Source: Nitzschia sp. pyKryTriq1
Lineage: Eukaryota > Bacillariophyta > Bacillariophyceae > Bacillariales > Bacillariaceae
Assembly: GCA_956465555.1 (NCBI GenBank)
Contig: OY101128.1
Location: 1,178,001 to 1,242,000, forward strand
Direction: 5' to 3'
Length of the DNA stretch: 64,000 bases
Shown: in pieces, positions 676-43,286 of the stretch
Layout of the letters: each line of letters begins with the position of its first letter
Position numbering within the stretch: position 1 is the stretch's first letter
Made by a program: the position numbers and the translations under genes
Notes under the pieces: generated by a model
Databases searched by the model: none
What the model was told of the DNA's origin: nothing
Seen by the model: only the letters and a program-made list of their open reading frames with translations

Positions 676-937
676 TGCACATGGCATCGAATACGAGTGG
701 GAGAATCCGATGCAAAGAATACCTGTGGACGCCAACGGAATCGTCGACTCCTGCGTAGTAGTAGTAGTAGTCATAACAGCACGAAAGTAGACTGATTTAG
801 GACAAATGAAGAGTAGTGTAAAAGTGTTAATTAGTAACATCTGAAATGATTATCGTTCAATACTCCGTATCTGCCATGTTTTCCGTCGAGAGAGGTAGAT
901 GCATCTTGACGGATCAACAGACTCTCCTCCTTTCTCT

Positions 938-3900
938 CTAGTTAGTCATCTTGCCCCACGTCACGCCCTGGCCACCTTCACATGGTCCACAGTAATCGTG
1001 AGAATAGAAACGAAGAATGTCAGAATCGGCTTCGGGCACACAGAAAGTCTGGTAACCCTTGCGTGAAGAGTAGTGGCAAACATAAACCATGCTGGCCTCG
1101 TCGCCCTCGCACGGGAAATCTTCAGAAACGCAGTATGGCATGTCATCGGGGTCGGTGCTTGGCTCTTCTGCCACAGAGTCACTTTCGTCAGTCTCTAGGC
1201 TGCGAACACACTCGCAGTTGAATTTCACATCGTACGAAGCAACGTTCGAGTTCTTGCCGTTGTTAGGCCAGCCGTCGCAAAGTCCGGGATTCTTATTGTC
1301 GGCAGTCTTGAATTGTCCATCGTGAAGGTTAACCCGGACTGTAATCGAGCCAATGTCAGCGTCACACTTGGTGAGGTATATCTGACTGACGCCGGGATCG
1401 AAACCATTCGTTTTTTGGCAGTCATCCAGCTTCCCGTCGCCATCAGTATCAACAATTGCAGATACCCAACTGATCTGTCCAGCCTTCCAACTTTGCTTCA
1501 CGCTGAATGTGATCTCGCTGTTTTGTCCGTTGTATCCAATGTATGTGATAGCGCCCGCAGGGTAACCAACGTCACCATTTTGCAATGGTGTTACACTAGC
1601 CAACGACGCTGTACAGGAACCTTGAGGGGGGGCAACGGGGGGGGGTGTCGGTGCCGGTGGCGTCGTTTGGCACAGACGGCTCGCTTGGCAGGGCAACACA
1701 TATAGGTGCGAGCACCCGGTCTTAGCAGCATTGCATGGCGAAGCTGCACTTTGTCCGCTGCACGGGGCAAAGATTTCGACTTCCGCCACACCGTTCGTGC
1801 ACTCCGCCCCAAACACTTGTCCGGCCGCATTCTCGAAGCACTCAAGTCCGGAGTCGCCAAGGGCATCGTAGCGCACCGTGAGCTCTTTGTTTTGGCAGCC
1901 CGAGGCGGTGAATGTGTTAGACACCTCGAATTTTACTTCTGAATCGCTCATTTCCATGATCTTGAAGGGGTTGCCGCTCATGCTGCACCTATTCGCATCT
2001 GGAGTGACATCAACGGCGCCATTGTAGCAGGACAAGAGAGGATGTTGTGGCGCAGGCGTCGGTTGGGCGGTTGGCGCAACAGGCACGGAATTTTCAGGTT
2101 CGCAAACTGGCTTACAGCCAAGGTTGAAGTAAAAAGCTGCAACATTCGTTGAAGTCGAGGCCGGCGCCTTGCAGTATTCACATTCGTTCGCTAAGTCGTT
2201 TCCGGTCAATTGGACGTACACGCTGACATCAGTAATATCGTCAACGCAATATGCCGAGAAAGGGAGACTGACGTTTGTGCCAACGCTCTTTGTGACATTA
2301 CAGTCGATGGAGCCAGCTGTGTCGTGGTAATACACAGAAATGGCTGCCACGGAGCCACCAGGGCTGAAGATTTGGTTGATTTTGAAGTCAACGCGATCAC
2401 CATCCTGGTAAGTGATGGTAACGATATCAGATGGGTCGACCACCAAACCATTCTTTCCGATGACTTCCAAGAAGTCGGGCTTGACCGTTTCGATACATTT
2501 GGTGGGGGCTGCCGTCGGCTGTGCCGTGGGTGCTCGGGTGGGGGCTGCCGTCGGTTTTGCCGTGGGTGCTCGGGTGGGCGCTGCCGTCGGTTTTGCCGTG
2601 GGTGCTCGGGTGGGCGCTGCCGTCGGTTTTGCCGTGGGCGCTTGGGTGGGCGCTGCCGTCGGTTTTGCCGTGGGCGCTTGGGTGGGCGCTGCCGTCGGTT
2701 GTGCGGTCGGTTGTGCCGTGGGTGCTTGGGTGGGCGCTGCCGTCGGTTGTGCCGTGGGTGCTTGGGTGGGCGCTGCCGTCGGTTGTGCGGTCGGTTGTGC
2801 CGTGGGTGCTTGGGTGGGCGCCGCCGTCGGTTTTGCCGTGGGCGCTTGGGTGGGCGCCGCCGTCGGTTTTGCCGTGGGTGCTTGGGTGGGCGCTGCCGTC
2901 GGTTGTGCGGTCGGTTGTGCCGTGGGTGCTTGGGTGGGCGCTGCCGTCGGTTTTGCCGTGGGCGCTTGGGTGGGCGCTGCCGTCGGTTTTGCCGTGGGTG
3001 CTTGGGTGGGCGCTGCCGTCGGTTTTGCCGTGGGTGCTTGGGTGGGCGCTGCCGTCGGTTTTGCCGTCGGCGCTTGGGTGGGCGCTGCCGTCGGTTGTGC
3101 CGTGGGTGCTTGGGTGGGCGCTGCCGTCGGTTTTGCCGTGGGCGCTTGGGTGGGCGCTGCCGTCGGTTGTGCCGTGGGTGCTTGGGTGGGCTGAGCTGTA
3201 GTTGGAATCGCCGTGGGACTAGCAGACGGCGGTTCGGTCTCGCATACAGGAATACAAGGCACCTCGAAGCTAAAGTAGACCGTATCAGTAGAGCCAGCCG
3301 AAGGGGGGTTGCACTTTTCGCACTCTTCTACAGTGACATTACCAAAGTAGGCAATGATACTGACATCCGTGAATTTGTTGTCGTGTCCGTAACAGAAAGC
3401 AGTATAGTTCAGCAAAGCATCAAGAGTCAACTCCGGTTTGCATTCATCCGTGCTGACGTCCTTATGGTAGTGCACAGAAATAGCTTTAAGCCCCGTACCA
3501 AGGAGGGTAGGGTTGATTGAGAACTCCACAGAATTTCCAGCTTGGGCCAGAATTTGAATGAGTTCCTCAAGATCCATACTCTCAAATACATGCGGTGCAT
3601 TTCCACCAATCTGTTCAATGAGAGATGGGACGGCCAAATCAATACAAGGTGTGGGGCCATCCGTTGGGGAAGTGGTTGGTCCAGAAGTAGGTCCCGACGT
3701 GGGTCCGGAAGTTGGTACCGAGGTAGGTCCGGAGGTTGGTCCAGACGTTGGTCCTGAGGTAGGTCCGGTTGTGGGTCCGGAAGTGGGTCCCGAGGTGGGT
3801 CCCGAGGTAGGTCCAGAGGTCGGTCCCGAAGTTGGTCCCGAGGTGGGTCCCGAGGTAGGTCCGGAGGTGGGTCCACTCGTTGGTCCCGAGGTAGGTACCA

Positions 3901-6900
3901 AAGTTGGTCCTGAGGTAGGTCCCGAAGTTGGTCCAGACGTGGGTCCCGAAGTAGGTCCTGACGTGGGTCCTGAAGTGGGTGCCGAAGTAGGTCCGGAGGT
4001 AGGTCCTGACGTAGGTCCCGAGGTAGGTCCCGAGGTAGGTCCCGAGGTAGGTCCCGAGGTAGGTCCCGAGGTGGGGCCAGAGGTGGGGCCCGAGGTGGGG
4101 CCCGAGGTAGGTCCACTCGTTGGTCCTGAGGTAGGTCCTGAGGTGGGTCCACTCGTTGGTCCCGAGGTAGGTCCCGAGGTTGGTCCAGACGTCGGTCCCG
4201 AAGTGGGTCCATAGGTCGGTCCAGAGGTAGGTCCCGAAGTTGGTCCCGAAGTAGGCCCCGAAGTGGGTCCAGATGTAGGTCCAGAAGTGGGTCCAGATGT
4301 AGGTCCAGAAGTGGGCCCTGAGGTCGGTCCGGAGGTCGGTCCGGAGGTGGGTCCAGAAGTAGGTCCAGATGTAGGTCCAGATGTAGGTCCAGATGTAGGT
4401 CCAGAAGTGGGCCCTGAGGTGGGTCCCGAGGTCGGTCCGGAGGTGGGTCCAGACGTAGGTCCAGATGTAGGCCCCGAAGTGGGTCCAGATGTGGGTCCCG
4501 AAGTGGGAGAACTTGTTGGACCGGCCGTAGGATCCTCACTAGGGTACAAACTGGCTGAAGGGGCATCCGATGGGGCGTTACTAGGAGCGGGTGAGACAGT
4601 TGGTGAAGGCGTGGGTGCACCAGTTGGTCCCGAAGTAGGACCAGACGTGGGTCCAGAAGTAGGGCCAGAAGTAGGTCCAGACGTCGGTCCCGAGGTAGGT
4701 CCCGATGTGGGTCCCGAAGTTGGTCCAGACGTGGGTCCAGAGGTAGGTCCCGAAGTTGGTCCAGAGGTAGGTCCCGAAGTTGGTCCAGAGGTGGGTCCCG
4801 AAGTAGGTCCTGAGGTCGGTCCCGAGGTGGGTCCCGAGGTAGGTCCTGAAGTAGGGCCCGAGGTAGGGCCCGAGGTAGGGCCCGAAGTGGGTCCCGAAGT
4901 GGGTCCGGAGGTAGGCCCCGAGGTAGGTCCGGAGGTAGGACCTGAGGTAGGACCCAAGGTCGGTCCCGAGGTAGGTCCCGAGGTAGGTCCAGGCGTGGGT
5001 CCGGAGGTGGGTCCTGAAGTGGGTCCTGAAGTGGGTCCTGAAGTGGGTCCCGAAGTAGGTCCGGAGGTAGGTCCTGACGTAGGTCCCGAGGTAGGTACCG
5101 AAGTGGGGCCCGAGGTAGGTCCCGAAGTGGGGCCCGAGGTAGGTCCACTAGTTGGTCCTGAGGTAGGTCCACTCGTTGGTCCTGAGGTAGGTCCTGAGGT
5201 GGGTCCACTCGTTGGTCCCGAGGTAGGTCCCGAGGTTGGTCCAGACGTCGGTCCCGAAGTGGGTCCATAGGTCGGTCCAGAGGTAGGTCCCGAAGTTGGT
5301 CCCGAAGTAGGCCCCGAAGTGGGTCCAGATGTAGGTCCAGAAGTGGGTCCAGATGTAGGTCCAGAAGTGGGCCCTGAGGTCGGTCCGGAGGTCGGTCCGG
5401 AGGTGGGTCCAGAAGTAGGTCCAGATGTAGGTCCAGATGTAGGTCCAGATGTAGGTCCAGAAGTGGGCCCTGAGGTGGGTCCCGAGGTCGGTCCGGAGGT
5501 GGGTCCAGACGTAGGTCCAGATGTAGGCCCCGAAGTGGGTCCAGATGTGGGTCCCGAAGTGGGAGAACTTGTTGGACCGGCCGTAGGATCCTCACTAGGG
5601 TACAAACTGGCTGAAGGGGCATCCGATGGGGCGTTACTAGGAGCGGGTGAGACAGTTGGTGAAGGCGTGGGTGCACCAGTTGGTCCCGAAGTAGGACCAG
5701 ACGTGGGTCCAGAAGTAGGGCCAGAAGTAGGTCCAGACGTCGGTCCCGAGGTAGGTCCCGATGTGGGTCCCGAAGTTGGTCCAGACGTGGGTCCAGAGGT
5801 AGGTCCCGAAGTTGGTCCAGAGGTAGGTCCCGAAGTTGGTCCAGAGGTGGGTCCCGAAGTAGGTCCTGAGGTCGGTCCCGAGGTGGGTCCCGAGGTAGGT
5901 CCTGAAGTAGGGCCCGAGGTAGGGCCCGAGGTAGGGCCCGAAGTGGGTCCCGAAGTGGGTCCGGAGGTAGGCCCCGAGGTAGGTCCGGAGGTAGGACCTG
6001 AGGTAGGACCCAAGGTCGGTCCCGAGGTAGGTCCCGAGGTAGGTCCAGGCGTGGGTCCGGAGGTGGGTCCTGAAGTGGGTCCTGAAGTGGGTCCTGAAGT
6101 GGGTCCCGAAGTAGGTCCGGAGGTAGGTCCTGACGTAGGTCCCGAGGTAGGTACCGAAGTGGGGCCCGAGGTAGGTCCCGAAGTGGGGCCCGAGGTAGGT
6201 CCACTCGTTGGTCCTGAGGTAGGTCCACTCGTTGGTCCTGAGGTAGGTCCTGAGGTGGGTCCACTCGTTGGTCTCGAAGTTGGTCCCGAAGTTGGTCCTG
6301 ACGTCGGTCCCGAAGTGGGTCCGGAGGTCGGTCCGGAAGTAGGTCCCGACGTGGGTCTCGATGTTGGTCCAGAAGTGGGTCCAGATGTAGGTCCAGAAGT
6401 GGGTCCAGATGTAGGTCCAGAAGTGGGCCCTGAGGTCGGTCCGGAGGTGGGTCCAGAAGTAGGTCCAGATGTAGGTCCAGAAGTTGGCCCTGAGGTGGGT
6501 CCCGAGGTCGGTCCGGAGGTGGGTCCAGACGTAGGTCCAGATGTAGGCCCCGAAGTGGGTCCAGATGTGGGTCCCGAAGTGGGAGAACTTGTTGGACCGG
6601 CCGTAGGATCCTCACTAGGGTACAAACTGGCTGAAGGGGCATCCGATGGGGCGTCACTAGGAGCGGGTGAGACAGTTGGTGAAGGCGTGGGTGCACCAGT
6701 GGGTCCCGAAGTAGGACCGGAGGTGGGTCCAGATGTAGGACCGGAGGTGGGTCCCGAAGTAGGGCCAGAAGTAGGTCCAGACGTCGGTCCCGAGGTAGGT
6801 CCTGATGTGGGTCCGGAAGTTGGTCCAGACGTGGGTCCAGAGGTAGGTCCCGAAGTTGGTCCAGAGGTAGGTCCCGAAGTAGGTCCGGAGGTGGGTCCCG

Positions 6901-9900
6901 AGGTAGGACCGGAGGTAGGAGCGGAGGTAGGACCGGAGGTCGGTCCCGAAGTAGGTCCCGAGGTAGGTCCAGAAGTGGGTCCAGACGTGGGTCCGGAGGT
7001 GGGTCCTGAAGTGGGTCCTGAAGTGGGTCCCGGAGTAGGTCCGGAGGTAGGTCCTGACGTAGGTCCCGAGGTAGGTACCGAAGTGGGGCCCGAGGTAGGT
7101 ACCGAAGTGGGGCCCGAGGTAGGTCCCGAGGTAGGTCCACTCGTTGGTCCTGAGGTAGGTCCACTCGTTGGTCCTGAGGTAGGTCCTGAGGTGGGTCCAC
7201 TCGTTGGTCCCGAAGTTGGTCCCGAAGTTGGTCCTGACGTCGGTCCCGAAGTGGGTCCGGAGGTCGGTCCGGAAGTAGGTCGCGACGTGGGTCCCGATGT
7301 TGGTCCAGAAGTGGGTCCAGATGTAGGTCCAGCAGTGGGTCCAGATGTAGGTCCAGAAGTGGGCCCTGAGGTCGGTCCGAAGGTCGGTCCGGAGGTGGGT
7401 CCAGAAGTAGGTCCAGATGTAGGTCCAGAAGTTGGCCCTGAGGTGGGTCCCGAGGTCGGTCCGGAGGTGGGTCCAGACGTAGGTCCAGATGTAGGCCCCG
7501 AAGTGGGTCCAGATGTGGGTCCCGAAGTGGGAGAACTTGTTGGACCGGCCGTAGGATCCTCACTAGGGTACAAACTGGCTGAAGGGGCATCCGATGGGGC
7601 GTCACTAGGAGCGGGTGAGACAGTTGGTGAAGGCGTGGGTGCACCAGTGGGTCCCGAAGTAGGACCGGAGGTGGGTCCAGATGTAGGACCCGAGGTGGGT
7701 TCCGAAGTAGGGCCAGAAGTAGGTCCAGACGTCGGTCCCGAGGTAGGTCCCGATGTGGGTCCCGAAGTTGGTCCAGACGTGGGTCCAGAGGTAGGTCCCG
7801 AAGTTGGTCCAAGGGTAGGTCCCGAAGTAGGTCCTGAGGTCGGTCCCGAGGTCGGTCCCGAGGTAGGTCCTGAAGTAGGGCCCGGGGTAGGGCCCGAGGT
7901 AGGGCCCGAAGTGGGTCCCGAAGTGGGTCCGGAGGTAGGCCCCGAGGTAGGTCCGGAGGTAGGACCTGAGGTAGGACCCAAGGTCGGTCCCGAGGTAGGT
8001 CCCGAGGTAGGTCCAGGCGTGGGTCCGGAGGTGGGTCCTGAAGTGGGTCCTGAAGTGGGTCCTGAAGTGGGTCCCGAAGTAGGTCCGGAGGTAGGTCCTG
8101 ACGTAGGTCCCGAGGTAGGTACCGAAGTGGGGCCCGAGGTAGGTCCCGAAGTGGGGCCCGAGGTAGGTCCACTCGTTGGTCCTGAGGTAGGTCCACTCGT
8201 TGGTCCTGAGGTAGGTCCTGAGGTGGGTCCACTCGTTGGTCTCGAAGTTGGTCCCGAAGTTGGTCCTGACGTCGGTCCCGAAGTGGGTCCGGAGGTCGGT
8301 CCGGAAGTAGGTCCCGACGTGGGTCCCGATGTTGGTCCAGAAGTGGGTCCAGATGTAGGTCCAGAAGTGGGTCCAGATGTAGGTCCAGAAGTGGGCCCTG
8401 AGGTCGGTCCGAAGGTCGGTCCGGAGGTGGGTCCAGAAGTAGGTCCAGATGTAGGTCCAGAAGTTGGCCCTGAGGTGGGTCCCGAGGTCGGTCCGGAGGT
8501 GGGTCCAGACGTAGGTCCAGATGTAGGCCCCGAAGTGGGTCCAGATGTGGGTCCCGAAGTGGGAGAACTTGTTGGACCGGCCGTAGGATCCTCACTAGGG
8601 TACAAACTGGCTGAAGGGGCATCCGATGGGGCGTCACTAGGAGCGGGTGAGACAGTTGGTGAAGGCGTGGGTGCACCAGTGGGTCCCGAAGTAGGACCGG
8701 AGGTGGGTCCAGATGTAGGACCCGAGGTGGGTTCCGAAGTAGGACCAGAAGTAGGTCCAGACGTCGGTCCCGAGGTAGGTCCTGATGTGGGTCCGGAAGT
8801 TGGTCCAGACGTGGGTCCAGAGGTAGGTCCCGAAGTTGGTCCAGAGGTAGGTCCCGAAGTAGGTCCGGAGGTGGGTCCCGAGGTAGGGCCCGAAGTGGGA
8901 CCCGAGGTAGGGCCCGAAGTGGGTCCCGAGGTCGGTCCCGAGGTAGGTCCGGAGGTAGGTCCGGAGGTAGGACCGGAGGTAGGACCGGAGGTAGGACCGG
9001 AGGTAGGACCCGAGGTCGGTCCCGAGGTAGGTCCCGAGGTAGGTCCAGACGTGGGTCCAGACGTGGGTCCGGAGGTGGGTCCTGAAGTGGGTCCTGAAGT
9101 GGGTCCCGAAGTAGGTCCGGAGGTAGGTCCTGACGTAGGTCCCGAGGTAGGTACCGAAGTGGGGCCCGAGGTAGGTCCAGAAGTGGGTCCAGACGTGGGT
9201 CCGGAGGTGGGTCCTGAAGTGGGTCCTGAAGTGGGTCCCGGAGTAGGTCCGGAGGTAGGTCCTGACGTAGGTCCCGAGGTAGGTACCGAAGTGGGGCCCG
9301 AGGTAGGTACCGAAGTGGGGCCCGAGGTAGGTCCCGAGGTAGGTCCACTCGTTGGTCCTGAGGTAGGTCCACTCGTTGGTCCTGAGGTAGGTCCTGAGGT
9401 GGGTCCACTCGTTGGTCCCGAAGTTGGTCCCGAAGTTGGTCCTGACGTCGGTCCCGAAGTGGGTCCGGAGGTCGGTCCGGAAGTAGGTCCCGACGTGGGT
9501 CCCGATGTTGGTCCAGAAGTGGGTCCAGATGTAGGTCCAGAAGTGGGTCCAGATGTAGGTCCAGAAGTGGGCCCTGAGGTCGGTCCGAAGGTCGGTCCGG
9601 AGGTGGGTCCAGAAGTAGGTCCAGATGTAGGTCCAGAAGTTGGCCCTGAGGTGGGTCCCGAGGTCGGTCCGGAGGTGGGTCCAGACGTAGGTCCAGATGT
9701 AGGCCCCGAAGTGGGTCCAGATGTGGGTCCCGAAGTGGGAGAACTTGTTGGACCGGCCGTAGGATCCTCACTAGGGTACAAACTGGCTGAAGGGGCATCC
9801 GATGGGGCGTCACTAGGAGCGGGTGAGACAGTTGGTGAAGGCGTGGGTGCACCAGTGGGTCCCGAAGTAGGACCGGAGGTGGGTCCAGATGTAGGACCCG

Positions 9901-23263: not shown

Positions 23264-23460
23264 GTGCACTATGCATGCAGTCAGGAGTCACGTCTGGCCT
23301 TCAGCCGGGATGTGCTCTGAAAAAGGGGGTTGAGGTCCGGTCTCGAACCCTCGGCCTCACACTCTGTGCGTTAGCCTTCAGCCATTGTGGCATATTGGAG
23401 CTCTCTCATTCAGAGGTGTGGGGAATCTCTTAAAGACTGCCTTGTGCCGTGTCCTGTGTG
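23264..23460 (-). repeat. tRNA-like (SINE-like) repeat, right copy
   Basis: Inverted counterpart of 259-453. On the minus strand it has box A-like TGGCTGAAGG (23375-23384), box B GGTTCGAGACC (23339-23349) and a T5 run (23320-23324). All three pol III signals are intact in both copies although other positions differ. It sits between the end of duplication unit 1 and a copia remnant. Confidence 0.5.
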
Positions 23461-24018
23461 AAGACGGCTTCTTCAAACTCATTTTTGTAAAGTCGGAAGA
23501 AAACATCTTTACGAAGAACGTAACCAGTGAAGTACACGAACGACACATCGATACCTAGGTAGCCAAGAAGGACTACCTAGAGAAGAACTCGATCGAACAA
23601 GCCGACGAGCAATACAAATGAGTCGTTCGACTGCACGTCAAGGGAGGGTGTTGAGAATCATTGATTGTGACGCACATCAAACGACATACATACATCATGA
23701 CTCGACTCGTTACTCAAACAGTACGAGATCGATATCTACTAGACTATATCGATGAACTAGACAGACCAAGAAGTACGAATTACACTCCGACCTAAACACG
23801 AACTATACTCCGACCTAAACACGATTTATACTCTGAAACACCACCTAAAGTGCAGGTCTGAAACCATAAAAGAAGCAGAGGTAGGTCCCGATGTGGGTCC
23901 CGAAGTTGGTCCAGACGTGGGTCCAGAGGTAGGTCCGGAAGTTGGTCCAGAGGTAGGTCCCGAAGTAAGTCTGATAAGTCGCACGAGTTACGAATGTTTC
24001 GTTTTCCAAATTATGATC
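23461..24018 (+). mobile_element. Broken Ty1/copia 3' end (pol tail, polypurine tract, LTR)
   Basis: A fossil fragment. A stretch at about 23465-23565 resembles the end of a copia RNase H region. It is followed by the purine run AAGGGAGGG (23640-23648) and then TGTTGAGAATC, the expected order of polypurine tract and 3' LTR start. The LTR part contains tandem copies of a ~23-bp motif (about 23775-23840) and a TATA-like ATAAAAG near 23866. It is broken, lacks most of the element, and carries an 89-bp insertion of giant-gene array. It is clearly diverged from the LTR at 454-675, so it is old. Confidence 0.45.
23879..23967 (-). repeat. Stray 89-bp fragment of the GPTS array
   Basis: This intergenic stretch is nearly identical to the interior of the giant genes, for example near 7740-7830. 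It still spells GPTS units on the minus strand but has no start, stop or flanking module. It lies inside the LTR-like sequence, so it was pasted there and is not the end of a third gene. Confidence 0.85.
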
Positions 24019-24019
24019 C

Positions 24020-24241
24020 TATTTTATCTGTCTACTTTCTGCTTTTATGAATGTTCGAGGTGGCCCCATGGGCCTTTAACTCGTGCTTCGTTGGGCCTTT
24101 AACTCTTGCTTCGTTGGGCCCAGAGCTCTTGATTTATTGGACGTATAGTCCTCGGTCTCGTAATAGTATTGAGTAACGAGTCGAGTCCTATATCGTCCGT
24201 ACGTCGTTCGTTGTACGTCATCATGAGAACGTTTCTCAACA
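24020..24241 (-). mobile_element. Old LTR fragment, probably Ty1/copia, copy in unit 2
   Basis: Duplicate of 454-675, carried along by the segmental duplication. TGCAC follows it on the right (24242-24246), as in unit 1, but the left neighbour is different, because the duplication breakpoint lies at this LTR end. Confidence 0.5.
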
Positions 24242-24503
24242 TGCACATGGCATCGAATACGAGTGGGAGAATCCGATGCAAAGAATACCTGTGGACGCCA
24301 ACGGAATCGTCGACTCCTGCGTAGTAGTAGTAGTAGTCATAACAGCACGAAAGTAGACTGATTTAGGACAAATGAAGAGTAGTGTAAAAGTGTTAATTAG
24401 TAACATCTGAAATGATTATGGTTCAATACTCCGTATCTGCCATGTTTTCCGTCGAGAGAGGTAGATGCATCTTGACGGATCAACAGACTCTCCTCCTTTC
24501 TCT

Positions 24504-36500: not shown

Positions 36501-39500
36501 CGGTGCGGAGGTCGGTCCCGAGGTCGGTCCCGAGGTCGGTCCCGAGGTAGGTCCAGAGGTGGGTTCAGAGGTAGGTCCCGAGGTAGGTCCCGAGGTAGGT
36601 CCCGAGGTAGGTCCCGAGGTAGGTCCTGAAGTGGGTCCCGATGTGGGTCCAGAGGTCGGTCCTGAAGTGGGTCCCGAGGTAGGTCCTGAAGTGGGTCCCG
36701 ATGTGGGTCCAGAGGTCGGTCCCGACGTTGGTCCAGAAGTTGGTCCTGACGTGGGTCCAGAGGTCGGTCCCGACGTTGGTCCAGAAGTTGGTCCAGAGGT
36801 GGGACCCGAAGTCGGTCTCGACGTTGGTCCAGAAGTTGGTCCCGAGGTGGGACCAGAAGTTGGTCCCGAGGTGGGTCCAGAGGTGGGTCCAGAAGTTGGT
36901 CCGGAGGTGGGTCCAGAAGTAGGTCCTGATGTCGGAGATCCAGTTGGGCCAGCTGTAGGATCCTCGCTTGGGTATAAACTTGCCGAAGGAGCATCCGATG
37001 GTGCGTCGCTAGGGGCAGGTGAAACAGTGGGCGAAGGCGTTGGTGCACCAGTGGGTCCCGAGGTAGGTCCCGAGGTAGGTCCGGAGGTAGGTCCCGAGGT
37101 AGGTCCCGAGGTAGGTCCTGAAGTGGGTCCTGAAGTAGGTCCCGAGGTGGGTCCTGAGGTAGGTCCCGACGTAGGTCCAGATGTCGGTCCCGAGGTGGGA
37201 CCTGATGTGGGTCCTGACGTGGGTCCCGATGTTGGTCCAGATGTTGGTCCCGAGGTCGGTGCGGAGGTCGGTCCCGAGGTCGGTCCCGAGGTAGGTCCAG
37301 AGGTGGGTTCAGAGGTAGGTCCCGAGGTAGGTCCCGAGGTAGGTCCCGAGGTAGGTCCCGAGGTAGGTCCCGAGGTAGGTCCTGAAGTGGGTCCCGATGT
37401 GGGTCCAGAGGTCGGTCCTGAAGTGGGTCCCGAGGTAGGTCCTGAAGTGGGTCCTGACGTGGGTCCAGAGGTCGGTCCCGACGTTGGTCCAGAAGTTGGT
37501 CCTGACGTGGGTCCAGAGGTCGGTCCCGACGTTGGTCCAGAAGTTGGTCCAGAGGTGGGACCCGAAGTCGGTCCCGACGTTGGTCCAGAAGTTGGTCCCG
37601 AGGTGGGACCAGAAGTTGGTTCCGAGGTGGGTCCAGAGGTGGGTTCAGAAGTTGGTCCGGAGGTGGGTCCAGAAGTAGGTCCTGATGTCGGAGATCCAGT
37701 TGGGCCAGCTGTAGGATCCTCGCTTGGGTATAAACTTGCCGAAGGAGCATCCGATGGTGCGTCGCTAGGGGCAGGTGAAACAGTGGGCGAAGGCGTTGGT
37801 GCACCAGTGGGTCCCGAGGTAGGTCCCGAGGTAGGTCCTGAGGTAGGTCCCGAGGTAGGTCCCGAGGTAGGTCCCGAGGTAGGTCCCGAGGTAGGTCCTG
37901 AAGTGGGTCCCGACGTAGGTCCCGAGGTCGGTCCGGAAGTGGGTCCCGAGGTCGGTCCTGAAGTGGGTCCAGACGTGGGTCCCGAGGTCGGTCCCGAGGT
38001 CGGTCCTGAAGTGGGTCCAGAGGTGGGTCCCGAGGTAGGTCCCGAGGTAGGTCCCGAGGTAGGTCCCGAGGTAGGTCCCGAGGTAGGTCCCGAGGTAGGT
38101 CCCGAGGTGGGTCCAGAGGTAGGTCCCGAGGTGGGTCCAGAGGTAGGTCCTGAAGTGGGTCCCGATGTGGGTCCAGAGGTCGGTCCTGAAGTGGGTCCCG
38201 AGGTAGGTCCTGAAGTAGGTGCTGACGTGGGTCCAGAGGTCGGTCCCGACGTTGGTCCTGAAGTTGGTCCTGACGTTGGTCCAGAAGTTGGTCCAGAGGT
38301 GGGTCCCGAAGTCGGTCCAGACGTTGGTCCCGAGGTGGGCCCAGAAGTTGGTCCAGAGGTGGGTCCAGAGGTGGGTCCAGAAGTGGGTCCAGAAGTTGGT
38401 CCAGAGGTGGGTCCGGAGGTGGGTCCAGAAGTAGGTCCTGATGTCGGGGATCCAGTTGGGCCAGCTGTAGGATCCTCGCTTGGGTATAAACTTGCCGAAG
38501 GAGCATCCGATGGTGCGTCGCTAGGGGCAGGTGAAACAGTGGGCGAAGGCGTTGGTGCACCAGTGGGTCCCGAGGTAGGTCCTGAAGTGGGTCCAGAGGT
38601 GGGTCCCGAGGTAGGTCCCGAGGTAGGACCCGAGGTAGGTCCCGAGGTGGGTCCCGAGGTAGGTCCCGAGGTCGGTCCTGATGTGGGTCCAGAGGTGGGT
38701 CCCGAGGTAGGTCCTGATGTGGGACCTGACGTGGGACCTGACGTGGGTCCAGAGGTCGGTCCCGACGTTGGTCCAGAAGTTGGTCCAGAGGTGGGTCCAG
38801 AAGTCGGTCCCGACGTTGGTCCAGAAGTTGGTCCCGAGGTTGGCCCAGAAGTTGGTCCCGAGGTGGGTCCAGAAGTTGGTCCTGACGTTGGTCCAGAAGT
38901 TGGTCCCGAGGTGGGCCCAGAAGTTGGTCCCGAGGTGGGTCCAGAAGTTGGTCCTGACGTTGGTCCCGACGTTGGTCCCGAAGTTGGTCCAGAAGTTGGT
39001 CCAGAAGTTGGTCCAGAAGTGGGTCCGGAGGTGGGTCCGGAAGTGGGTCCCGAGGTCGGTCCGGAAGTGGGTCCAGAAGTGGGTCCAGAAGTGGGTCCCG
39101 AAGTAGGTCCAGAAGTGGGTCCCGAAGTAGGTCCCGAAGTAGGTCCTGATGTGGGGGATCCAGTTGGGCCAGCTGTAGGATCCTCGCTTGGGTATAAACT
39201 TGCCGAAGGGGCATCTGATGGTGCGTCGCTAGGGGCAGGTGAAATGGTGGGCGAAGGCGTTGGTGCACCAGTGGGTCCCGACGTAGGTCCTGAAGTGGGT
39301 CCTGAGGTAGGTCCCGAGGTAGGTCCCGAGGTAGGTCCCGAGGTAGGTCCTGAAGTGGGTCCCGACGTGGGTCCCGACGTGGGTCCCGAGGTGGGTCCCG
39401 AGGTGGGTCCCGAAGTCGGTCCAGAGGTGGGTCCCGAGGTAGGTCCTGAAGTGGGTCCTGACGTGGGTCCAGAGGTCGGTCCCGACGTTGGTCCAGAAGT

Positions 39501-42500
39501 TGGTCCAGAGGTGGGTCCAGAAGTCGGTCCCGACGTTGGTCCAGAAGTTGGTCCTGAGGTTGGCCCAGAAGTTGGTCCCGAGGTGGGTCCAGAAGTTGGT
39601 CCTGACGTTGGTCCCGAGGTTGGTCCAGAAGTTGGTCCCGACGTTGGTCCCGAGGTGGGTCCAGAAGTTGGTCCTGACGTTGGTCCCGACGTTGGTCCCG
39701 AGGTAGGTCCCGAGGTAGGTCCCGAGGTAGGTCTAGAAGTTGGTCCCGAAGTGGGTCCGGAGGTTGGTCCAGAGGTGGGTCCAGACGTTGGTCCTGAAGT
39801 GGGTCCCGACGTTGGGGACGACGTGGGTGGGCGAGTGTCTCCATCTTTTGTAGGCGCAGCAGATACGGTAGGGAGTGCGGTGGGGACAGCCGTCGGTCCC
39901 GAAGTAGGTCCAGAAGTCGGTCCCGAGGTGGGTCCCGAAGTCGGTCCCGAGGTGGGTCCCGAAGTCGGTCCCGAGGTGGGTCCCGAGGTGGGTCCCGAGG
40001 TGGGTCCCGAAGTAGGTCCCGAAGTAGGTCCCGAAGTAGGTCCCGAAGTAGGTCCCGAAGTAGGTCCCGAAGTCGGTCCCGAAGTCGGTCCCGAAGTAGG
40101 CCCTGAAGTAGGCCCTGAAGTGGGTCCTGAAGTTGGTCCTGCCACTGGTTCCTGGGTTGGAGGGACTGGGGTGGACTCGCAAGGCCATCCAGGTTTTTTC
40201 TCGCAAGGGACTACGAATGAATATACTACCACCTTGTCTGCATTAGCATCATCGCACGGGTCAACATCTTCGCTGTCTTCAGAAAACGCGATCACATCAA
40301 TAAATGCAACTGCGATGTCGGGGTAATCTTGGTTAGAAACGCAGGTCGCCGTGAAGGTTGCACCATCGGTGGCAGAGTATGTTTTGCATTCGTAACCGTC
40401 TGCGGTTGGGTACTTTGCCTTCAAAGTAGTACCCCAAGCTTCTGGGACAAATTCTACCATGACATTGACAATATTGTAGGAAACAACACTGATAGGCGGG
40501 GAGAGCGAGAAAGGATTTTCTTCTGGCGAAACAAGGATAGGGTCCAAACAGTAGTCAGGAGTCGGTGCGGCGGTTGGCCCGGCCGTAGGTCCCGCAGTAG
40601 GTCCTGCAGTCGGTCCCGCAGTAGGTCCTGCAGTCGGTGCGACGGTGGGTCCAGCGGTTGGTGCACCAGTCGGTCGGGCCGTTGGACCAGCAGTCGGGGC
40701 CAAGACAGGTGAGGCAGTGGGTCCGACAGTAGGTCCGGCAGTGCGCGGCCCACAGGCATTGCTGCCGTCGCAAGGAATCTTCAAGGTGTACGACACAACT
40801 TCGTTTGGGTCTTGTTTCTCCCATCCCTTTGCAAAATTACAGATCGCAGGCTTGGGGGAAGACATATCTTTAAAAGAGCCGTCGTGGATGAAAAGCTCGA
40901 CTGATGCAAAGTTGTCCACACACGGAGCAGTATACACAGTCTCGGTTTCTGGACTGATCGTTTCCTTCTTGTCAGTCTCATTACAAGTTACATTATTGAA
41001 CACAGGTACCATCCAACTAATTGTACCGCTTGTCTTGTAATTCAGTTTGATACCAAATGTCACATTAGTAGTCTCTGATTGCTTGACGTCGACGGTCGCA
41101 TTGAACGGGATATACTTCGGATCTCGAGTCACATACACCCCCTCGCCTTCAATGCAGTAGGTGACCTCGCTGGGTCCAACGGTTGGTCCGGCAGTGGGTC
41201 CGGCAGTCGGGGCCGAGACAGGTGCGGCAGTGGGTCCGACAGCAGGTGCGGCAGTGGGTCCCGCGGTGGGACCGGCAGTCGGTGCGACGGTGGGACCAGC
41301 GGTTGGTGCACCAGTCGGTCGGGCCGTTGGACCAGCAGTCGGGGCCAAGACAGGTGAGGCAGTGGGTCCGACAGTAGGTCCGGCAGTGCGCGGCCCACAG
41401 GCATTGCTGCCGTCGCAAGGAATCTTCAAGGTGTACGACACAACTTCGTTTGGGTCTTGTTTCTCCCATCCCTTTGCAAAATTACAGATCGCAGGCTTGG
41501 GGGAAGACATATCTTTAAAAGAGCCGTCGTGGATGAAAAGCTCGACTGATGCAAGGTTGTCCACACACGGAGCAGTATACACAGTCTCGGTTTCTGGACT
41601 GATCGTTTCCTTCTTGTCAGTCTCATTACAAGTTACATTATTGAACACAGGTACCATCCAACTAATTGTACCGCTTGTCTTGTAATTCAGTTTGATACCA
41701 AATGTCACATTAGTAGTCTCTGATTGCTTGACGTCGACGGTCGCATTGAACGGGATATACTTCGGATCTCGAGTCACATACACCCCCTCGCCTTCAATGC
41801 AGTAGGTGATCTCGCTGGGTCCAACGGTTGGTCCGGCAGTGGGTCCGGCAGTCGGTTCCAAAGTATCTTCTGGGCCTGAGAATGGTTCAACGGGAGCACC
41901 AAAAGGAGCGGCCGTGGGGACAACACCATCAGTAAAAGAGAAGCCCGGCTTGCCTTTCTGCCCAACTTCGCCTGTGGGAGCCATGCTGGGGGTATCACTC
42001 GGAGCGTCGCTAACGTCCTCTTCGTTGGAGGGCTTCGGTCCACGGCGCTTATTCCCACCAACTTCGCCTGTGGGAGCCATGCTGGGGGTATCACTCGGAG
42101 CGTCGCTGACGTCCTCTTCGTTGGAGGGCTTCGGTCCACGGCGCTTATTCCCACCACCGTCGCCTGTGGGAGCCATGCTGGGGGTATCACTCGGAGCGTC
42201 GCTGACGTCCTCTTCGTTGGAGGGCTTCGGTCCACGGCGGCGTCCACCTTCGCCTGTGGGAGCCATGCTGGGGGTATCACTCGGAGCGTCGCTGTCGTCC
42301 TCTTCCTTAGGTCCACGGCGGCGTCCACCTTCGCCCGTGGGAGCCATACTGGGGGTATCACTCGGAGCGTCGCTGAGGTCCGCCTCATTAGAGGGGTTAC
42401 TACGGCGGCGCCCACCTTCGCCAGTGGGAGCCATGCTCGGGGTGTCACTCGGAGCGTCGCTGTCCGCGTCAGGAGGCGGGCCCGGCTCCACATCACCATC

Positions 42501-43286
42501 AGTGCCCTGGGCTTCGGAGTCCCCATCGCGATTGGCATCATCCACGCCCGAGGGGGACTGAGAAGGCTCCATAGACACGGAAGGCATCTGAGAGTTACAC
42601 CAGACATGCTTTCGCGGACCGACCTTGCCCATGTTTCCGAAACACTCATCCTTGGTGGGGGCTTGAGAAGCAACGGAATCGATAGACCCCGATGGGAAGT
42701 CGCCAGCGAACGTCTGCGGAGCACTCACGGGGCCAGCAACGGGGCTGGCCGTAGGGACTCCTTCTGCCTGGCGGGGTTCCATTTCCATACCTGGGAGACC
42801 TGGGTTGCCTCGACCTGGGTTGCCTTGGGCCTCCGTCCCACGACCACCATTAATAAGATGACGAAACTCCGCGCAGGCAGGGTCCTCCTTGTCAATGAGG
42901 CAGTGGGTGGGCATGATCTTGATTTCGCCATCAAGCTTCTTGCGCTGAGCTTCCTCGAAGCCAGCAGGCAAGTTGGGGTTGGATCCGGGGTCCTCGTGGG
43001 GACCTGGGATCAGGGGAGCGCAGGGGCCTACCTTGGTTGGGTCGTCCAAGTCACAGTCGACAGCGTCAACGATCTTGCTGGCTCGAACGTTCCTGCCGAA
43101 GTACCTGTAGAACCACGATGTCCTCCTCTCGATCACCTCCTCCGCGTAACGCAAAAATCCGAGGACGCCTCCTCCAAGATCAGCGTGAACGCCAGAGAAA
43201 CTGGTCGCGAGGATCAACAGGACCAAGAGTCCGCCTTTCCCCATGCTCCAGGGTTTGCTTTTAGCCATCTTCGATGTCAATGTCAA
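24504..43286 (-). CDS. Giant secreted Gly-Pro-Thr-Ser mucin-like modular protein, copy 2
   Basis: A single frame of 6260 codons with the same architecture as copy 1: signal peptide, six DAPS repeats, A1 (41390-41816), A2 (40744-41174), B (40169-40562), GPTS arrays with one module C (33100-33555), D (26900-27330), PTA array, E, F, G and tail. Met7 is an alternative start at 43268. Unique regions differ from copy 1 by very few residues (an Arg-Pro/Arg-Ala and a Gln/Arg change near the N-terminus, Glu/Asp and Val/Ile in module C). The 894-residue length difference is mostly the missing second module C. Both frames are open, so both copies are probably functional. Confidence 0.85.
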   Translation of the reverse strand: MTLTSKMAKSKPWSMGKGGLLVLLILATSFSGVHADLGGGVLGFLRYAEEVIERRTSWFYRYFGRNVRASKIVDAVDCDLDDPTKVGPCAPLIPGPHEDPGSNPNLPAGFEEAQRKKLDGEIKIMPTHCLIDKEDPACAEFRHLINGGRGTEAQGNPGRGNPGLPGMEMEPRQAEGVPTASPVAGPVSAPQTFAGDFPSGSIDSVASQAPTKDECFGNMGKVGPRKHVWCNSQMPSVSMEPSQSPSGVDDANRDGDSEAQGTDGDVEPGPPPDADSDAPSDTPSMAPTGEGGRRRSNPSNEADLSDAPSDTPSMAPTGEGGRRRGPKEEDDSDAPSDTPSMAPTGEGGRRRGPKPSNEEDVSDAPSDTPSMAPTGDGGGNKRRGPKPSNEEDVSDAPSDTPSMAPTGEVGGNKRRGPKPSNEEDVSDAPSDTPSMAPTGEVGQKGKPGFSFTDGVVPTAAPFGAPVEPFSGPEDTLEPTAGPTAGPTVGPSEITYCIEGEGVYVTRDPKYIPFNATVDVKQSETTNVTFGIKLNYKTSGTISWMVPVFNNVTCNETDKKETISPETETVYTAPCVDNLASVELFIHDGSFKDMSSPKPAICNFAKGWEKQDPNEVVSYTLKIPCDGSNACGPRTAGPTVGPTASPVLAPTAGPTARPTGAPTAGPTVAPTAGPTAGPTAAPAVGPTAAPVSAPTAGPTAGPTVGPSEVTYCIEGEGVYVTRDPKYIPFNATVDVKQSETTNVTFGIKLNYKTSGTISWMVPVFNNVTCNETDKKETISPETETVYTAPCVDNFASVELFIHDGSFKDMSSPKPAICNFAKGWEKQDPNEVVSYTLKIPCDGSNACGPRTAGPTVGPTASPVLAPTAGPTARPTGAPTAGPTVAPTAGPTAGPTAGPTAGPTAGPTAAPTPDYCLDPILVSPEENPFSLSPPISVVSYNIVNVMVEFVPEAWGTTLKAKYPTADGYECKTYSATDGATFTATCVSNQDYPDIAVAFIDVIAFSEDSEDVDPCDDANADKVVVYSFVVPCEKKPGWPCESTPVPPTQEPVAGPTSGPTSGPTSGPTSGPTSGPTSGPTSGPTSGPTSGPTSGPTSGPTSGPTSGPTSGPTSGPTSGPTSGPTSGPTSGPTSGPTAVPTALPTVSAAPTKDGDTRPPTSSPTSGPTSGPTSGPTSGPTSGPTSGPTSRPTSGPTSGPTSGPTSGPTSGPTSGPTSGPTSGPTSGPTSGPTSGPTSGPTSGPTSGPTSGPTSGPTSGPTSGPTSGPTSGPTSGPTSGPTSGPTSGPTSGPTSGPTSGPTSGPTSGPTSGPTSGPTSGPTSGPTSGPTSGPTSGPTSGPTSGPTGAPTPSPTISPAPSDAPSDAPSASLYPSEDPTAGPTGSPTSGPTSGPTSGPTSGPTSGPTSGPTSGPTSGPTSGPTSGPTSGPTSGPTSGPTSGPTSGPTSGPTSGPTSGPTSGPTSGPTSGPTSGPTSGPTSGPTSGPTSGPTSGPTSGPTSGPTSGPTSGPTSGPTSGPTSGPTSGPTSGPTSGPTSGPTSGPTSGPTSGPTSGPTSGPTSGPTSGPTSGPTSGPTSGPTSGPTGAPTPSPTVSPAPSDAPSDAPSASLYPSEDPTAGPTGSPTSGPTSGPTSGPTSGPTSGPTSGPTSGPTSGPTSGPTSGPTSGPTSGPTSGPTSGPTSGPTSGPTSGPTSGPTSAPTSGPTSGPTSGPTSGPTSGPTSGPTSGPTSGPTSGPTSGPTSGPTSGPTSGPTSGPTSGPTSGPTSGPTSGPTSGPTSGPTSGPTSGPTSGPTSGPTSGPTSGPTSGPTSGPTSGPTSGPTSGPTSGPTSGPTSGPTGAPTPSPTVSPAPSDAPSDAPSASLYPSEDPTAGPTGSPTSGPTSGPTSGPTSEPTSGPTSEPTSGPTSGPTSGPTSGPTSGPTSGPTSGPTSGPTSGPTSGPTSGPTSGPTSGPTSGPTSGPTSGPTSGPTSGPTSGPTSGPTSGPTSGPTSGPTSGPTSGPTSEPTSGPTSGPTSGPTSAPTSGPTSGPTSGPTSGPTSGPTSGPTSGPTSGPTSGPTSGPTSGPTSGPTSGPTSGPTSGPTSGPTSGPTGAPTPSPTVSPAPSDAPSDAPSASLYPSEDPTAGPTGSPTSGPTSGPTSGPTSGPTSGPTSGPTSGPTSGPTSGPTSRPTSGPTSGPTSGPTSGPTSGPTSGPTSGPTSGPTSGPTSGPTSGPTSGPTSGPTSGPTSGPTSGPTSGPTSGPTSGPTSGPTSEPTSGPTSGPTSGPTSGPTSAPTSGPTSGPTSGPTSGPTSGPTSGPTSGPTSGPTSGPTSGPTSGPTSGPTSGPTSGPTSGPTSGPTSGPTGAPTPSPTVSPAPSDAPSDAPSASLYPSEDPTAGPTGSPTSGPTSGPTSGPTSGPTSGPTSGPTSGPTSGPTSGPTSRPTSGPTSGPTSGPTSGPTSGPTSGPTSGPTSGPTSGPTSGPTSGPTSGPTSGPTAGPTSGPTSGPTSGPTSGPTSGPTSGPTSGPTTGPTSGPTSGPTSGPTLGPTSGPTSGPTSGPTSGPTSGPTSGPTSGPTSGPTSGPTSGPTSGPTSAPTSGPTSGPTSGPTSGPTSGPTSGPTSGPTSGPTSGPTSGPTSGPTSGPTSGPTGAPTPSPSVSPAPSDAPSDAPSASLYPSEDPTAGPTGSPTSGPTSGPTSGPTSGPTSGPTSGPTSGPTSGPTSGPTSGPTSGPTSGPTSGPTSGPTSGPTSGPTSGPTSGPTSGPTSGPTSRPTSGPTSGPTSGPTSGPTSGPTSGPTSGPTSGPTSGPTSGPTSGPTSGPTSGPTSGPTSGPTSGPTSGPTSGPTSGPTSGPTSGPTTGPTAGPTSGPTSGPTSGPTSGPTSGPTSGPTSGPTSGPTSGPTSGPTSGPTSGPTSEPTSGPTSGPTSGPTSGPTSGPTSGPTSGPTSGPTGAPTPSPTVSPAPSDAPSDAPSASLYPSEDPTAGPTGSPTSGPTSGPTSGPTSGPTSGPTSGPTSGPTSGPTSGPTSGPTSGPTSGPTSGPTSGPTSGPTSAPTSGPTSGPTSGPTSGPTSGPTSGPTSGPTSGPTSGPTSGPTSGPTSGPTSGPTSGPTSAPTSGPTSGPTSGPTSGPTSGPTSGPTSGPTSGPTSGPTSGPTSGPTSGPTSGPTSGPTSGPTSGPTSGPTSGPTSGPTSGPTSGPTSGPTSGPTFGPTSGPTSGPTSGPTSGPTSGPTSGPTSGPTSGPTSGPTSGPTSGPTSGPTSGPTSGPTSGPTSGPTSAPTSTPSVSFQPTDCWEKYGITEDDLVHQEGFPLSLPNETVNILSADGDSITIEITNLFTNKTVVMVSVNYHQAIGVSECDYTTNLAYGESFDFTALCFDEYTDISIFVWTGEVNVTECKYCSMPSGEDVPVTIFHFEPSCRDICAPPTSVPTSTPTSGPTSGPTSGPTSGPTSGPTSGPTSGPTSGPTSGPTSGPTSGPTSGPTSAPTSGPTSGPTSGPTSGPTSGPTSGPTSGPTSGPTSGPTSGPTSGPTSGPTSGPTSGPTSGPTSGPTSGPTSGPTSGPTSGPTSGPTSGPTSGPTSGPTSGPTSGPTSGPTSGPTSGPTSGPTSGPTSGPTSGPTSGPTSGPTSGPTSGPTSGPTSGPTSGPTSGPTSGPTSGPTSGPTSGPTSRPTSGPTSGPTSGPTSGPTSGPTSGPTSGPTSGPTSGPTSGPTSGPTSGPTSGPTSGPTSGPTGAPTPSPTVSPAPSDAPSDAPSASLYPSEDPTAGPTSSPTSGPTSGPTSGPTSGPTSGPTSGPTSGPTSGPTSGPTSGPTSGPTSGPTSGPTSGPTSGPTSGPTSGPTSGPTSRPTSGPTSGPTSGPTSGPTSGPTSGPTSGPTSGPTSGPTSGPTSGPTSGPTSGPTSGPTSGPTSGPTSGPTSGPTSGPTSGPTSGPTSGPTSGPTSGPTSGPTSGPTSGPTSGPTSGPTSGPTSGPTSGPTSGPTSGPTSGPTSGPTSGPTSGPTSGPTSGPTSGPTSGPTSGPTSGPTSGPTSGPTSGPTSGPTSGPTSGPTSGPTSGPTSGPTSGPTSGPTGAPTPSPTVSPAPSDAPSDAPSASLYPSEDPTAGPTSSPTSGPTSGPTSGPTSGPTSGPTSGPTSGPTSGPTSGPTSGPTSGPTSGPTSGPTSGPTSGPTSGPTSGPTSGPTSGPTSGPTSGPTSGPTSGPTSGPTSGPTSGPTSGPTSGPTSGPTSGPTSGPTSGPTSGPTSGPTSGPTSGPTSGPTSGPTSGPTSGPTSGPTSGPTSGPTSGPTSGPTSGPTSGPTSGPTSGPTSGPTSGPTSGPTSGPTSGPTSGPTSGPTSGPTSGPTSGPTSGPTSGPTSGPTSGPTSGPTSGPTSGPTSGPTSGPTSGPTSGPTSGPTSGPTSGPTSGPTSGPTSGPTSGPTGAPTPSPTVSPAPSNAPSDAPSASLYPSEDPTAGPTSSPTSGPTSGPTSGPTSGPTSGPTSGPTSGPTSGPTSGPTSGPTSGPTSGPTSGPTSGPTSGPTSGPTSGPTSGPTSGPTSGPTSGPTSGPTSGPTSGPTSGPTSGPTSGPTSGPTSGPTSGPTSGPTSGPTSGPTSGPTSGPTSGPTSGPTSGPTSGPTSGPTSGPTSGPTSGPTSGPTSGPTSGPTSGPTSGPTSGPTSGPTSGPTSGPTSGPTSGPTSGPTSGPTSGPTGAPTPSPTVSPAPSNAPSDAPSASLYPSEDPTAGPTSSPTSGPTSGPTSGPTSGPTSGPTFGPTSGPTSGPTSGPTSGPTSGPTSGPTSGPTSGPTSGPTSGPTSRPTSGPTSGPTSGPTSGPTSGPTSGPTSGPTSGPTSGPTSGPTSGPTSGPTSGPTSGPTSGPTSGPTSGPTSGPTSGPTSGPTSGPTSGPTSGPTSGPTSGPTSGPTSGPTSGPTSGPTSGPTSGPTSGPTSGPTSGPTSGPTSGPTSGPTSGPTSGPTSGPTSGPTSGPTSGPTSGPTSGPTSGPTSGPTSGPTSGPTSGPTSGPTSGPTSGPTSGPTSGPTSGPTSGPTSGPTGAPTPSPTVSPAPSNAPSDAPSASLYPSEDPTAGPTSSPTSGPTSGPTSGPTSGPTSGPTSGPTSGPTSGPTSGPTSGPTSGPTSGPTSGPTSGPTSGPTSGPTSGPTSGPTSGPTSGPTSGPTSGPTSGPTSGPTSGPTSGPTSGPTSGPTSGPTSGPTSGPTSGPTSGPTSGPTSGPTSGPTSGPTSGPTSGPTSGPTSGPTSGPTSGPTSGPTSAPTSGPTSGPTSGPTSGPTSGPTSGPTSGPTSGPTLVPTSGPTSGPTSGPTSGPTSGPTSGPTSGPTSGPTSGPTSGPTTGPTSGPTSGPTSGPTSVPTSGPTSGPTSGPTTSPTDGPTPCIDLAVPSLIEQIGGNAPHVFESMDLEELIQILAQAGNSVEFSINPTLLGTGLKAISVHYHKDVSTDECKPELTLDALLNYTAFCYGHDNKFTDVSIIAYFGNVTVEECEKCNPPSAGSTDTVYFSFEVPCIPVCETEPPSASPTAIPTTAQPTQAPTAQPTAMPTQAPTAKPTAAPTQAPTAQPTAAPTQAPTAKPTAAPTQAPTAKPTAAPTQAPTAKPTAAPTQAPTAKPTAAPTQAPTAKPTAAPTQAPTAQPTAQPTAAPTQAPTAQPTAAPTQAPTAQPTAAPTQAPTAKPTAAPTQAPTAKPTAAPTQAPTAQPTAQPTAAPTQAPTAQPTAAPTQAPTAQPTAQPTAAPTQAPTAKPTAAPTQAPTAKPTAAPTRAPTAKPTAAPTRAPTAKPTAAPTRAPTAQPTAAPTKCIETVKPDFLEVIGKNGLVVDPSDIVTITYQDGDRVDFKINQIFSPGGSVAAISVYYHDTAGSIDCNVTKSVGTNVSLPFSAYCVDDITDVSVYVQLTGNDLANECEYCKAPASTSTNVAAFYFNLGCKPVCEPENSVPVAPTAQPTPAPQHPLLSCYNGAVDVTPDANRCSMSGNPFKIMEMSDSEVKFEVSNTFTASGCQNKELTVRYDALGDSGLECFENAAGQVFGAECTNGVAEVEIFAPCSGQSAASPCNAAKTGCSHLYVLPCQASRLCQTTPPAPTPPPVAPPQGSCTASLASVTPLQNGDVGYPAGAITYIGYNGQNSEITFSVKQSWKAGQISWVSAIVDTDGDGKLDDCQKTNGFDPGVSQIYLTKCDADIGSITVRVNLHDGQFKTADNKNPGLCDGWPNNGKNSNVASYDVKFNCECVRSLETDESDSVAEEPSTDPDDMPYCVSEDFPCEGDEASMVYVCHYSSRKGYQTFCVPEADSDILRFYSHDYCGPCEGGQGVTWGKMTN
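26071..26872 (-). repeat. PTAAPTQAPTA(K/Q) array, copy 2
   Basis: Same type of Pro-Thr-Ala minisatellite as 2505-3205, expanded by 108 nt (36 residues) with Lys- and Gln-containing units in a different order. Confidence 0.85.
27330..40145 (-). repeat. GPTS 12-nt coding array with higher-order spacers, copy 2
   Basis: About nine hundred GPTS units (estimate from span) with twelve SLYPSEDPTAGPT spacers, near 28252, 29272, 30078, 31121, 32131, 34461, 35361, 36211, 36970, 37728, 38484 and 39190. Five lie between modules D and C and seven between C and B, against seven, one and four in copy 1. The total spacer number is thus the same but the distribution differs. Confidence 0.9.

Follow-up and report, generated by a model that had tools for sequence, protein, structure and literature searches.

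How can a coding sequence built largely of short tandem repeats change in length without losing its reading frame, and what is to be made of two such giants lying side by side? The question is raised by a 64,000-nucleotide window of the diatom Nitzschia sp. pyKryTriq1 (contig OY101128.1, C14:1178001-1242000; the genome searched comprises 40.65 Mb in 20 contigs), which carries two giant open reading frames (ORFs), here genes A and B, in tandem on the minus strand. A first reading of the letters, made without database searches and hereafter called the sequence-only reading, had described a giant tandem pair of 7154 and 6260 residues; ORFs of exactly those lengths are found, and translation of both full frames gives no internal stop. 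The explanation that we consider rather probable is a recent tandem duplication of a gene for an extracellular modular stalk protein, whose repeat arrays turn over faster than the sequences flanking them.

Both frames are apparently intronless, and the two products are probably secreted, as judged from the signal peptide at their N-termini (Table 1). The description of the pair as intronless secreted proteins thus stands insofar as no intron is needed and a signal peptide is present in both; secretion and intronlessness themselves remain predictions drawn from the sequence. Without glycans, the calculated masses are 662 kDa for A and 580 kDa for B. Nineteen-residue windows with a mean hydropathy above 1.6 occur in the signal peptide only, the maximum beyond residue 60 being 1.25, and runs of xxPT make up 69.5% of the residues of A and 67.5% of those of B. 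Long P/T/S-rich tracts on a predicted secreted protein are thus a trait that A and B share with mucin-like or hydroxyproline-rich glycoprotein (HRGP)-like molecules.

The bulk of each gene is an array of 12-nt units encoding SGPT and close variants. About a thousand repeats per gene had been claimed, in agreement with the 1117 (A) and 918 (B) SGPT-like units counted here, a count that takes in units at most one residue away from SGPT and passes over those with two or more residue changes; Tandem Repeats Finder reports 1279 and 1061 period-12 copies, respectively. Over the 15.6 kb of the A array, no stop occurs in the coding frame and the other five frames hold 12, 14, 56, 211 and 482, to be compared with a mean of 177 stops per frame in mononucleotide shuffles. 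Frame openness alone is nevertheless weak evidence, because a 12-nt unit by itself keeps a stop-free frame open. The distribution of variation over codon positions is more telling: non-major letters amount to 188/8936 at positions 1 and 2 of the A units versus 2120/4468 at position 3, and to 110/7344 versus 1710/3672 in B, so that pi is 0.041 (A) and 0.029 (B) at the first two positions versus 0.58 and 0.57 at the third. Across 2035 units, the first two positions of the P codon are never changed and those of the T codon are changed twice. The 24 linker cassettes interspersed in the arrays behave in the same way, with 29 of 45 third positions variable versus 5 of 90 other positions. The figures for the units are conservative, because some letters at positions 1 and 2 are silent (Ser is also encoded by AGY). 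The protein design has clearly been under selection over the lifetime of the arrays, with its P-T backbone held; this says nothing on whether both copies have been constrained since their split. One result weighs against continuing constraint: a singleton-unit test, with A and B pooled, gives 10 third-position versus 25 other changes and looks neutral. It was set aside because a new variant at a third position will often be identical to a unit type already present and hence will not register as a singleton, yet it still counts against recent constraint. Long antisense frames were dropped as candidate genes because the array variation sits on the third positions of the minus-strand frame. The search for structural RNAs returned no Rfam match at the gathering score and no tRNA.

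Comparison of the two copies separates the history of the arrays from that of their surroundings. Outside the arrays, 5 of 5669 compared sites differ (0.09%): 3/3162 nt in the N-terminal part, 0/1923 in M6, M7 and the C-terminal part, 1/485 in the 3' flank and 1/99 in the 5' flank, the last probably reflecting the border of a 3-bp indel; the long arrays, the DCWEK-type modules inside them, the M6-M7 PTA array and all but 99 nt of the 5' flank are left out of this count. Followed over 151 aligned columns, the 5' flank shows one mismatch and the 3-bp indel, and the DCWEK modules of A and B differ at 2-3 of 438 nt; at an E/D site in this module, A reads ITEED and B reads ITEDD. The arrays are another matter. 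In one colinear alignment, 199 of 3438 codons differ (157 of them synonymously) and copy-specific blocks of 29, 31, 55 and 60 units are seen in B and of 75, 82, 88 and 125.5 units in A, plus many small ones, all these values depending on the alignment chosen. One class of cassettes is represented by six identical members in A (A5-A10) and by two in B, B8 being unchanged and B9 carrying one change; another has two members in A (A1, A2) and four in B (B2-B5), the latter with 0-2 changes. Since the counts per class differ between the copies, it appears that different segments were amplified in the two arrays, and the sequence-only reading is supported insofar as the arrays do differ between the copies, in blocks and in cassettes.

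The borders of the duplication are sharp. The shared 5' flank measures only about 165 bp and ends at 22550 and 43431, beyond which the upstream contexts differ: the outer 5' flank stays with B, and copy A begins from the spacer after these ~165 bp. The spacer contains an LTR-like (long terminal repeat) sequence at 23255-23459 and, at the breakpoint, an 89-bp piece of SGPT array (23878-23966) that is 98.9% identical to array units of A; the location of this stray piece at the very edge of the duplication hints at breakage or repair in which the arrays took part. The other matches of the spacer are about 100 bp at 73% identity to the right flank and an inverted 90 bp at 77% to 586-675. Next to A, on its 3' side, an inserted LTR element is flanked by the target duplication CTATT, the empty site being kept in B near 24018, and its two LTRs differ at 1 of 199 positions. 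The dissimilarity of the outer flanks, a spacer that resembles neither of them apart from short matches, and the empty LTR site in B argue for a true tandem duplication rather than a join of two alleles.

The element itself resembles a terminal-repeat retrotransposon in miniature (TRIM); inspection by eye shows a tRNA-like GGTTCGA box within its 199-bp LTRs. The LTR has 35 matches genome-wide, partial ones included, many of them paired about 1.2 kb apart. Left of the window, two copies of the element (L039:7254-8690 and L039:8944 onward) lie in opposite orientation and form a large inverted repeat.

Table 1. Positions of the duplicated blocks, the two genes and their parts (window coordinates unless marked L039).
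Feature	Position	Strand	Remarks
Duplicated block, copy 1	453..22550		left edge resumes at about L039:8889-8943, across the inserted element
Duplicated block, copy 2	23968..43431		main shared block from 24019; ~50 bp more leftward, opposite the LTR insertion
Spacer between copies	22551..23967		1417 bp
LTR element, right end, in 3' flank of A	1..452	+	1409-bp element (L039:8944 to window 452), 199-bp LTRs
ORF A	938..22402	-	7154 aa counted from TTG, as first claimed
ORF B	24504..43286	-	6260 aa counted from TTG, as first claimed
Gene A, first ATG to stop	938..22384	-	7148-aa open frame, no introns needed
Gene B, first ATG to stop	24504..43268	-	6254-aa open frame
Signal peptide A (predicted)	22298..22384	-	29 residues to ...SGVHA; cleavage site read by eye
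Signal peptide B (predicted)	43182..43268	-	identical to that of A
A array	3677..19252	-	1117 SGPT-like 12-nt units, 12 linker cassettes (APSASLYPSEDPTAG)
B array	27351..40136	-	918 SGPT-like units and 12 linker cassettes, enclosing one DCWEK module
A modules M1-M3	19292..20920	-	M1 20510-20920, M2 19865-20275, M3 19292-19669
A module M4, DCWEK type	14375..14779	-	within array
A module M5, second DCWEK copy	11777..12181	-	no counterpart in B
A modules M6-M9	1199..3649	-	M6 3236-3649, M7 2096-2500, M8 1658-2032, M9 1199-1618
B DCWEK module, single	about 33123-33527	-	within B array
Cys6 C-terminal tail A	965..1147	-	conserved
Cys6 C-terminal tail B	24531..24713	-	conserved

Besides the arrays, both proteins carry cysteine-containing (Cys) modules and, as had been claimed, one conserved C-terminal tail each, here the Cys6 tail. 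The modules had been put at eight and seven; the difference of one is right, and the counts are corrected to nine in A and eight in B, A having two DCWEK copies and B one. Within A, M2 is 99% identical to M1, M5 differs from M4 by one synonymous change over the 438 nt compared, and a PTA(A/Q/K) array separates M6 from M7. Modelling of the C-terminal 526 residues yields beta-sandwiches for M7-M9, with a predicted local distance difference test (pLDDT) score mostly of 70-92, and the best Foldseek rows for them are mostly FN3 tandems; the model of the Cys6 tail is of poor quality. Aligned by hhalign to four DUF7633-matching stretches of relatives, M4, M6 and M7 reach a probability of 98, M1 and M9 of 97 and M8 of 92, as opposed to only 2-3% for the module groups of A and B against the end module of C11 and C12 (two paralogs introduced below). 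The modules are tentatively predicted to be beta-sandwiches, distantly similar to DUF7633 (PF24636). This similarity is of the profile-profile kind and does not reach the curated Pfam cut-off: none of the N-terminal, DCWEK and C-terminal parts scanned matches DUF7633 directly at E 1. A DUF7633 scan of the genome itself came back empty, as did its controls, and the literature searched yielded no mention of DUF7633 or PF24636. Several faint matches were taken as chance, namely sub-cut-off Pfam matches in parts of the window (Reelin subrepeat 0.098, FG-GAP 0.25, CATSPERE 0.62), FTO as the only product of a solved-structure search with the A1 profile (E 0.33 or worse), and three weak NCBIfam families, one member each, among 11 tail members (best E 0.02). 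No solved structure matches the Cys6 tail at E 1.

The tail, about 60 residues long, is what ties the giants to other proteins. It is found at four places in the genome: in A, in B and in two smaller paralogs that also have PT arrays, C11 (1265 aa, L036:1049-4846) and C12 (1848 aa, L037:3172-8718). C11 has SGPT units and an APSASLYPS linker nearly identical to that of the giants, which suggests exchange between loci; C12 has PT arrays similar to theirs and one module 36% identical to M1. Among public proteins, a query made of M8, M9 and the tail retrieves 40 at E 1e-3 (3781 candidates), Bacillariaceae sp. included, and a query from C11 adds three (3366 candidates); Seminavis robusta is among the relatives. 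The family thus totals 47 members (43 public relatives plus A, B, C11 and C12), and in each of the 47 a single strong match to the Cys6 tail ends 1-13 residues short of the C-terminus; as the tail profile was built from 29 of the 47 and members were found with the tail in the query, they are not an independent sample, and the figure tells the position of the tail, not its frequency. The relatives P0042 (Seminavis robusta, 1319 aa) and P0037 (Bacillariaceae sp., 655 aa) share with C11 and C12 the same tail at most 13 residues from the C-terminus, but all four, of which some may be incomplete frames, are about 4- to 11-fold shorter than A and differ from it in their N-terminal regions. In another relative, P0041, a DUF7633 module and the tail go together with a stretch that matches vWD in part (32 of 156 positions) and includes the letters GDPH. 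A search for giant relatives with the whole of protein A (residues 6780-7148 scored) gave none at E 1e-3 among 1381 candidates; the window's own proteins were unlisted too, so that absence is not shown. A bacterial or viral origin of the tail was not confirmed either (16 pattern stretches in genome contigs, 2 in viral contigs), in scans of two short patterns each that could miss distant relatives. The protein family is real and constrained; the tail that defines it, here the Cys6 tail family, is uncharacterised.

Intragenic repeats in genes for surface proteins have a parallel in yeast, where the cell-wall gene HPF1 is reportedly subject to intragenic repeat expansion; the likeness to A and B, whose surface location is presumed, is one of description. 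Closer to home, PMC11420354 describes two trail proteins of the diatom Craspedostauros australis, CaTrailin4 (~900 kDa) and Ca5609 (>1 MDa), as giant, modular and said to be about 2 um long. Diatom origin, giant size, modularity and a location outside the cell (predicted for A and B) are common to both pairs, again by description and not by sequence. An ice-binding-like beta-helix is reported for CaTrailin4 in PMC10713564; none was recognised in A or B, among the parts scanned against Pfam and the 526 C-terminal residues modelled. Proteins with vWD domains and GDPH motifs are discussed as adhesive in the diatoms Seminavis and Amphora (PMC7335047); they and A/B would be alike in being extracellular, and P0041 offers a link through the tail, but neither A nor B has a GDPH motif and the parts scanned give no vWD match. 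The sequence-only reading had found nothing described to match the pair with, a view that gives way to the paralogs C11 and C12, the 43 public relatives and the giant modular diatom surface proteins described in PMC11420354. A and B are best regarded as a variant of these described giant modular secreted diatom proteins, and the tail family is the most promising lead.

Architecture and relatives together make it most likely that the proteins consist of a stalk, modules and a docking tail within an extracellular coat. In the model that we propose, the gene for a giant secreted modular protein would have been duplicated in tandem recently, leaving copies that now differ mainly in their arrays. 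The P/T/S/G stalk would be extended, hydroxylated and/or O-glycosylated, and about 2 um long when fully stretched (an estimate at 0.3 nm per residue). Disulfide-bonded beta-sandwich modules would sit near both ends and in the middle of the protein, and the diatom-type Cys6 tail would dock it in the extracellular coat, be it the cell wall, mucilage or an adhesive strand. Unequal exchange, acting on whole 12-nt units and on larger cassettes, would lengthen or shorten the arrays without loss of the reading frame, and selection would hold the P-T backbone while they change. A bolder extension, speculative and on the unlikely side, treats the tail as a diatom-specific docking or sorting domain that attaches varied secreted proteins to the coat, by analogy with bacterial C-terminal sorting domains; A and B would then be extreme clients, their length tuned by fast in-frame array turnover, and the twin copies would serve as a reservoir for new lengths.

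Several other readings overlap with this one and with each other, since they answer different questions (on copy use, age, location or assembly), and their likelihoods need not add up to one. The first, compatible with a recent duplication and a possibility that we take seriously without favouring it, is that one copy only is at work: A, which starts from the spacer, would perhaps be unexpressed or mis-expressed and its frame open merely because it is young. The shared 5' sequence indeed stops at 165 bp and gives way in A to a spacer with an LTR-like repeat; a promoter can fit within that distance, however, and neither frame is defective. The open frames themselves had been taken as an argument that both copies are used. 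This argument fails at 0.09% divergence: about 4% of random substitutions create a stop, so that without selection the two copies would together be expected to have gained some 0.7 stops, and in about half of all cases neither frame would be interrupted. Copies as similar as these do not reveal whether both are used. Nor are peptides a strong means of telling them apart, as had been proposed, since A yields 55 and B 56 distinct tryptic peptides with a length of 7-50 aa and 53 of these are common to the two, leaving two and three copy-specific ones, respectively; the SGPT arrays themselves are poor in K and R.

The proposed model does not fix the location within the coat; compatible with it, though fairly unlikely in our view, is a reading in which the pair encodes silica cell-wall proteins of pleuralin or silaffin type instead of a mucilage or adhesive component. 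PT-repeats are reported in Phaeodactylum KRS-rich proteins and Thalassiosira pseudonana silaffins (PMC2758714) and so do occur in silica-related diatom proteins. Lysine and arginine, however, account for just 150 of the 7148 residues of A, unlike the lysine-rich silaffins, and a partial vWD match is found in a tail-bearing relative.

An unlikely reading of the age of the pair places the duplication further back in time, with two copies in use whose ends are kept identical by gene conversion as the arrays diverge. It could appeal to the colinear array codons, of which 5.8% differ versus 3/1695 codons outside, to the differences between the DCWEK modules located within the arrays, and to cassette B1, at least 6/135 nt away from every other cassette. 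Unit exchange can by itself explain array differences, though, and the flanks resemble each other almost as closely as the coding ends do, so that conversion would have to span whole blocks; the LTR pair beside A looks young as well.

That two alleles of a length-variable gene were set end to end by the assembly is quite improbable. The divergence of 0.09% does fall in the allelic range (paired alleles of Nitzschia inconspicua have a mean identity of 97.3%, 32% being identical, according to PMC8329260), long tandem repeats are difficult to assemble (PMC6868369), and the adjoining nicotinate phosphoribosyltransferase (NAPRT) flank is single in the assembly, with no second haplotype there. An end-to-end join should, however, repeat the outer flanks in the spacer, where apart from short matches there are none, and the block ends abruptly on both sides, at 22550/43431 and at 23968, the latter beside the stray array piece. 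That there is no gene at all, but a 12-nt satellite open by chance, is hardly credible: 12 is divisible by 3 and one other frame per strand has just 12-14 stops in 15.6 kb, but the third-position bias of units and linkers already contradicts it, as do conserved modules and a tail with 43 relatives.

On the recent-duplication reading, the pair constitutes a natural clock by which to time the turnover of repeats within a coding gene: flanks at 0.09% stand beside arrays with blocks gained or lost of up to ~125 units, and array change becomes measurable against point mutation at one locus. The Cys6 tail provides a handle for finding diatom secreted coat proteins that have no Pfam name. Short-read assemblies would probably break genes of this kind, in which case the number of giant surface proteins in diatoms may be underestimated.

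As for the surroundings, the intact NAPRT gene that adjoins gene B (45308-46978) has one match in the genome, and a TPR protein with a SAP-domain match lies at 52771-55128. Elsewhere in the genome, all eight silicic acid transporter matches listed are above the cut-off and, together with the relatives named as Bacillariaceae sp. and Seminavis robusta, mark the genome as that of a diatom; four silicic acid transporter loci are clustered within 42 kb (C1:275839-317295).
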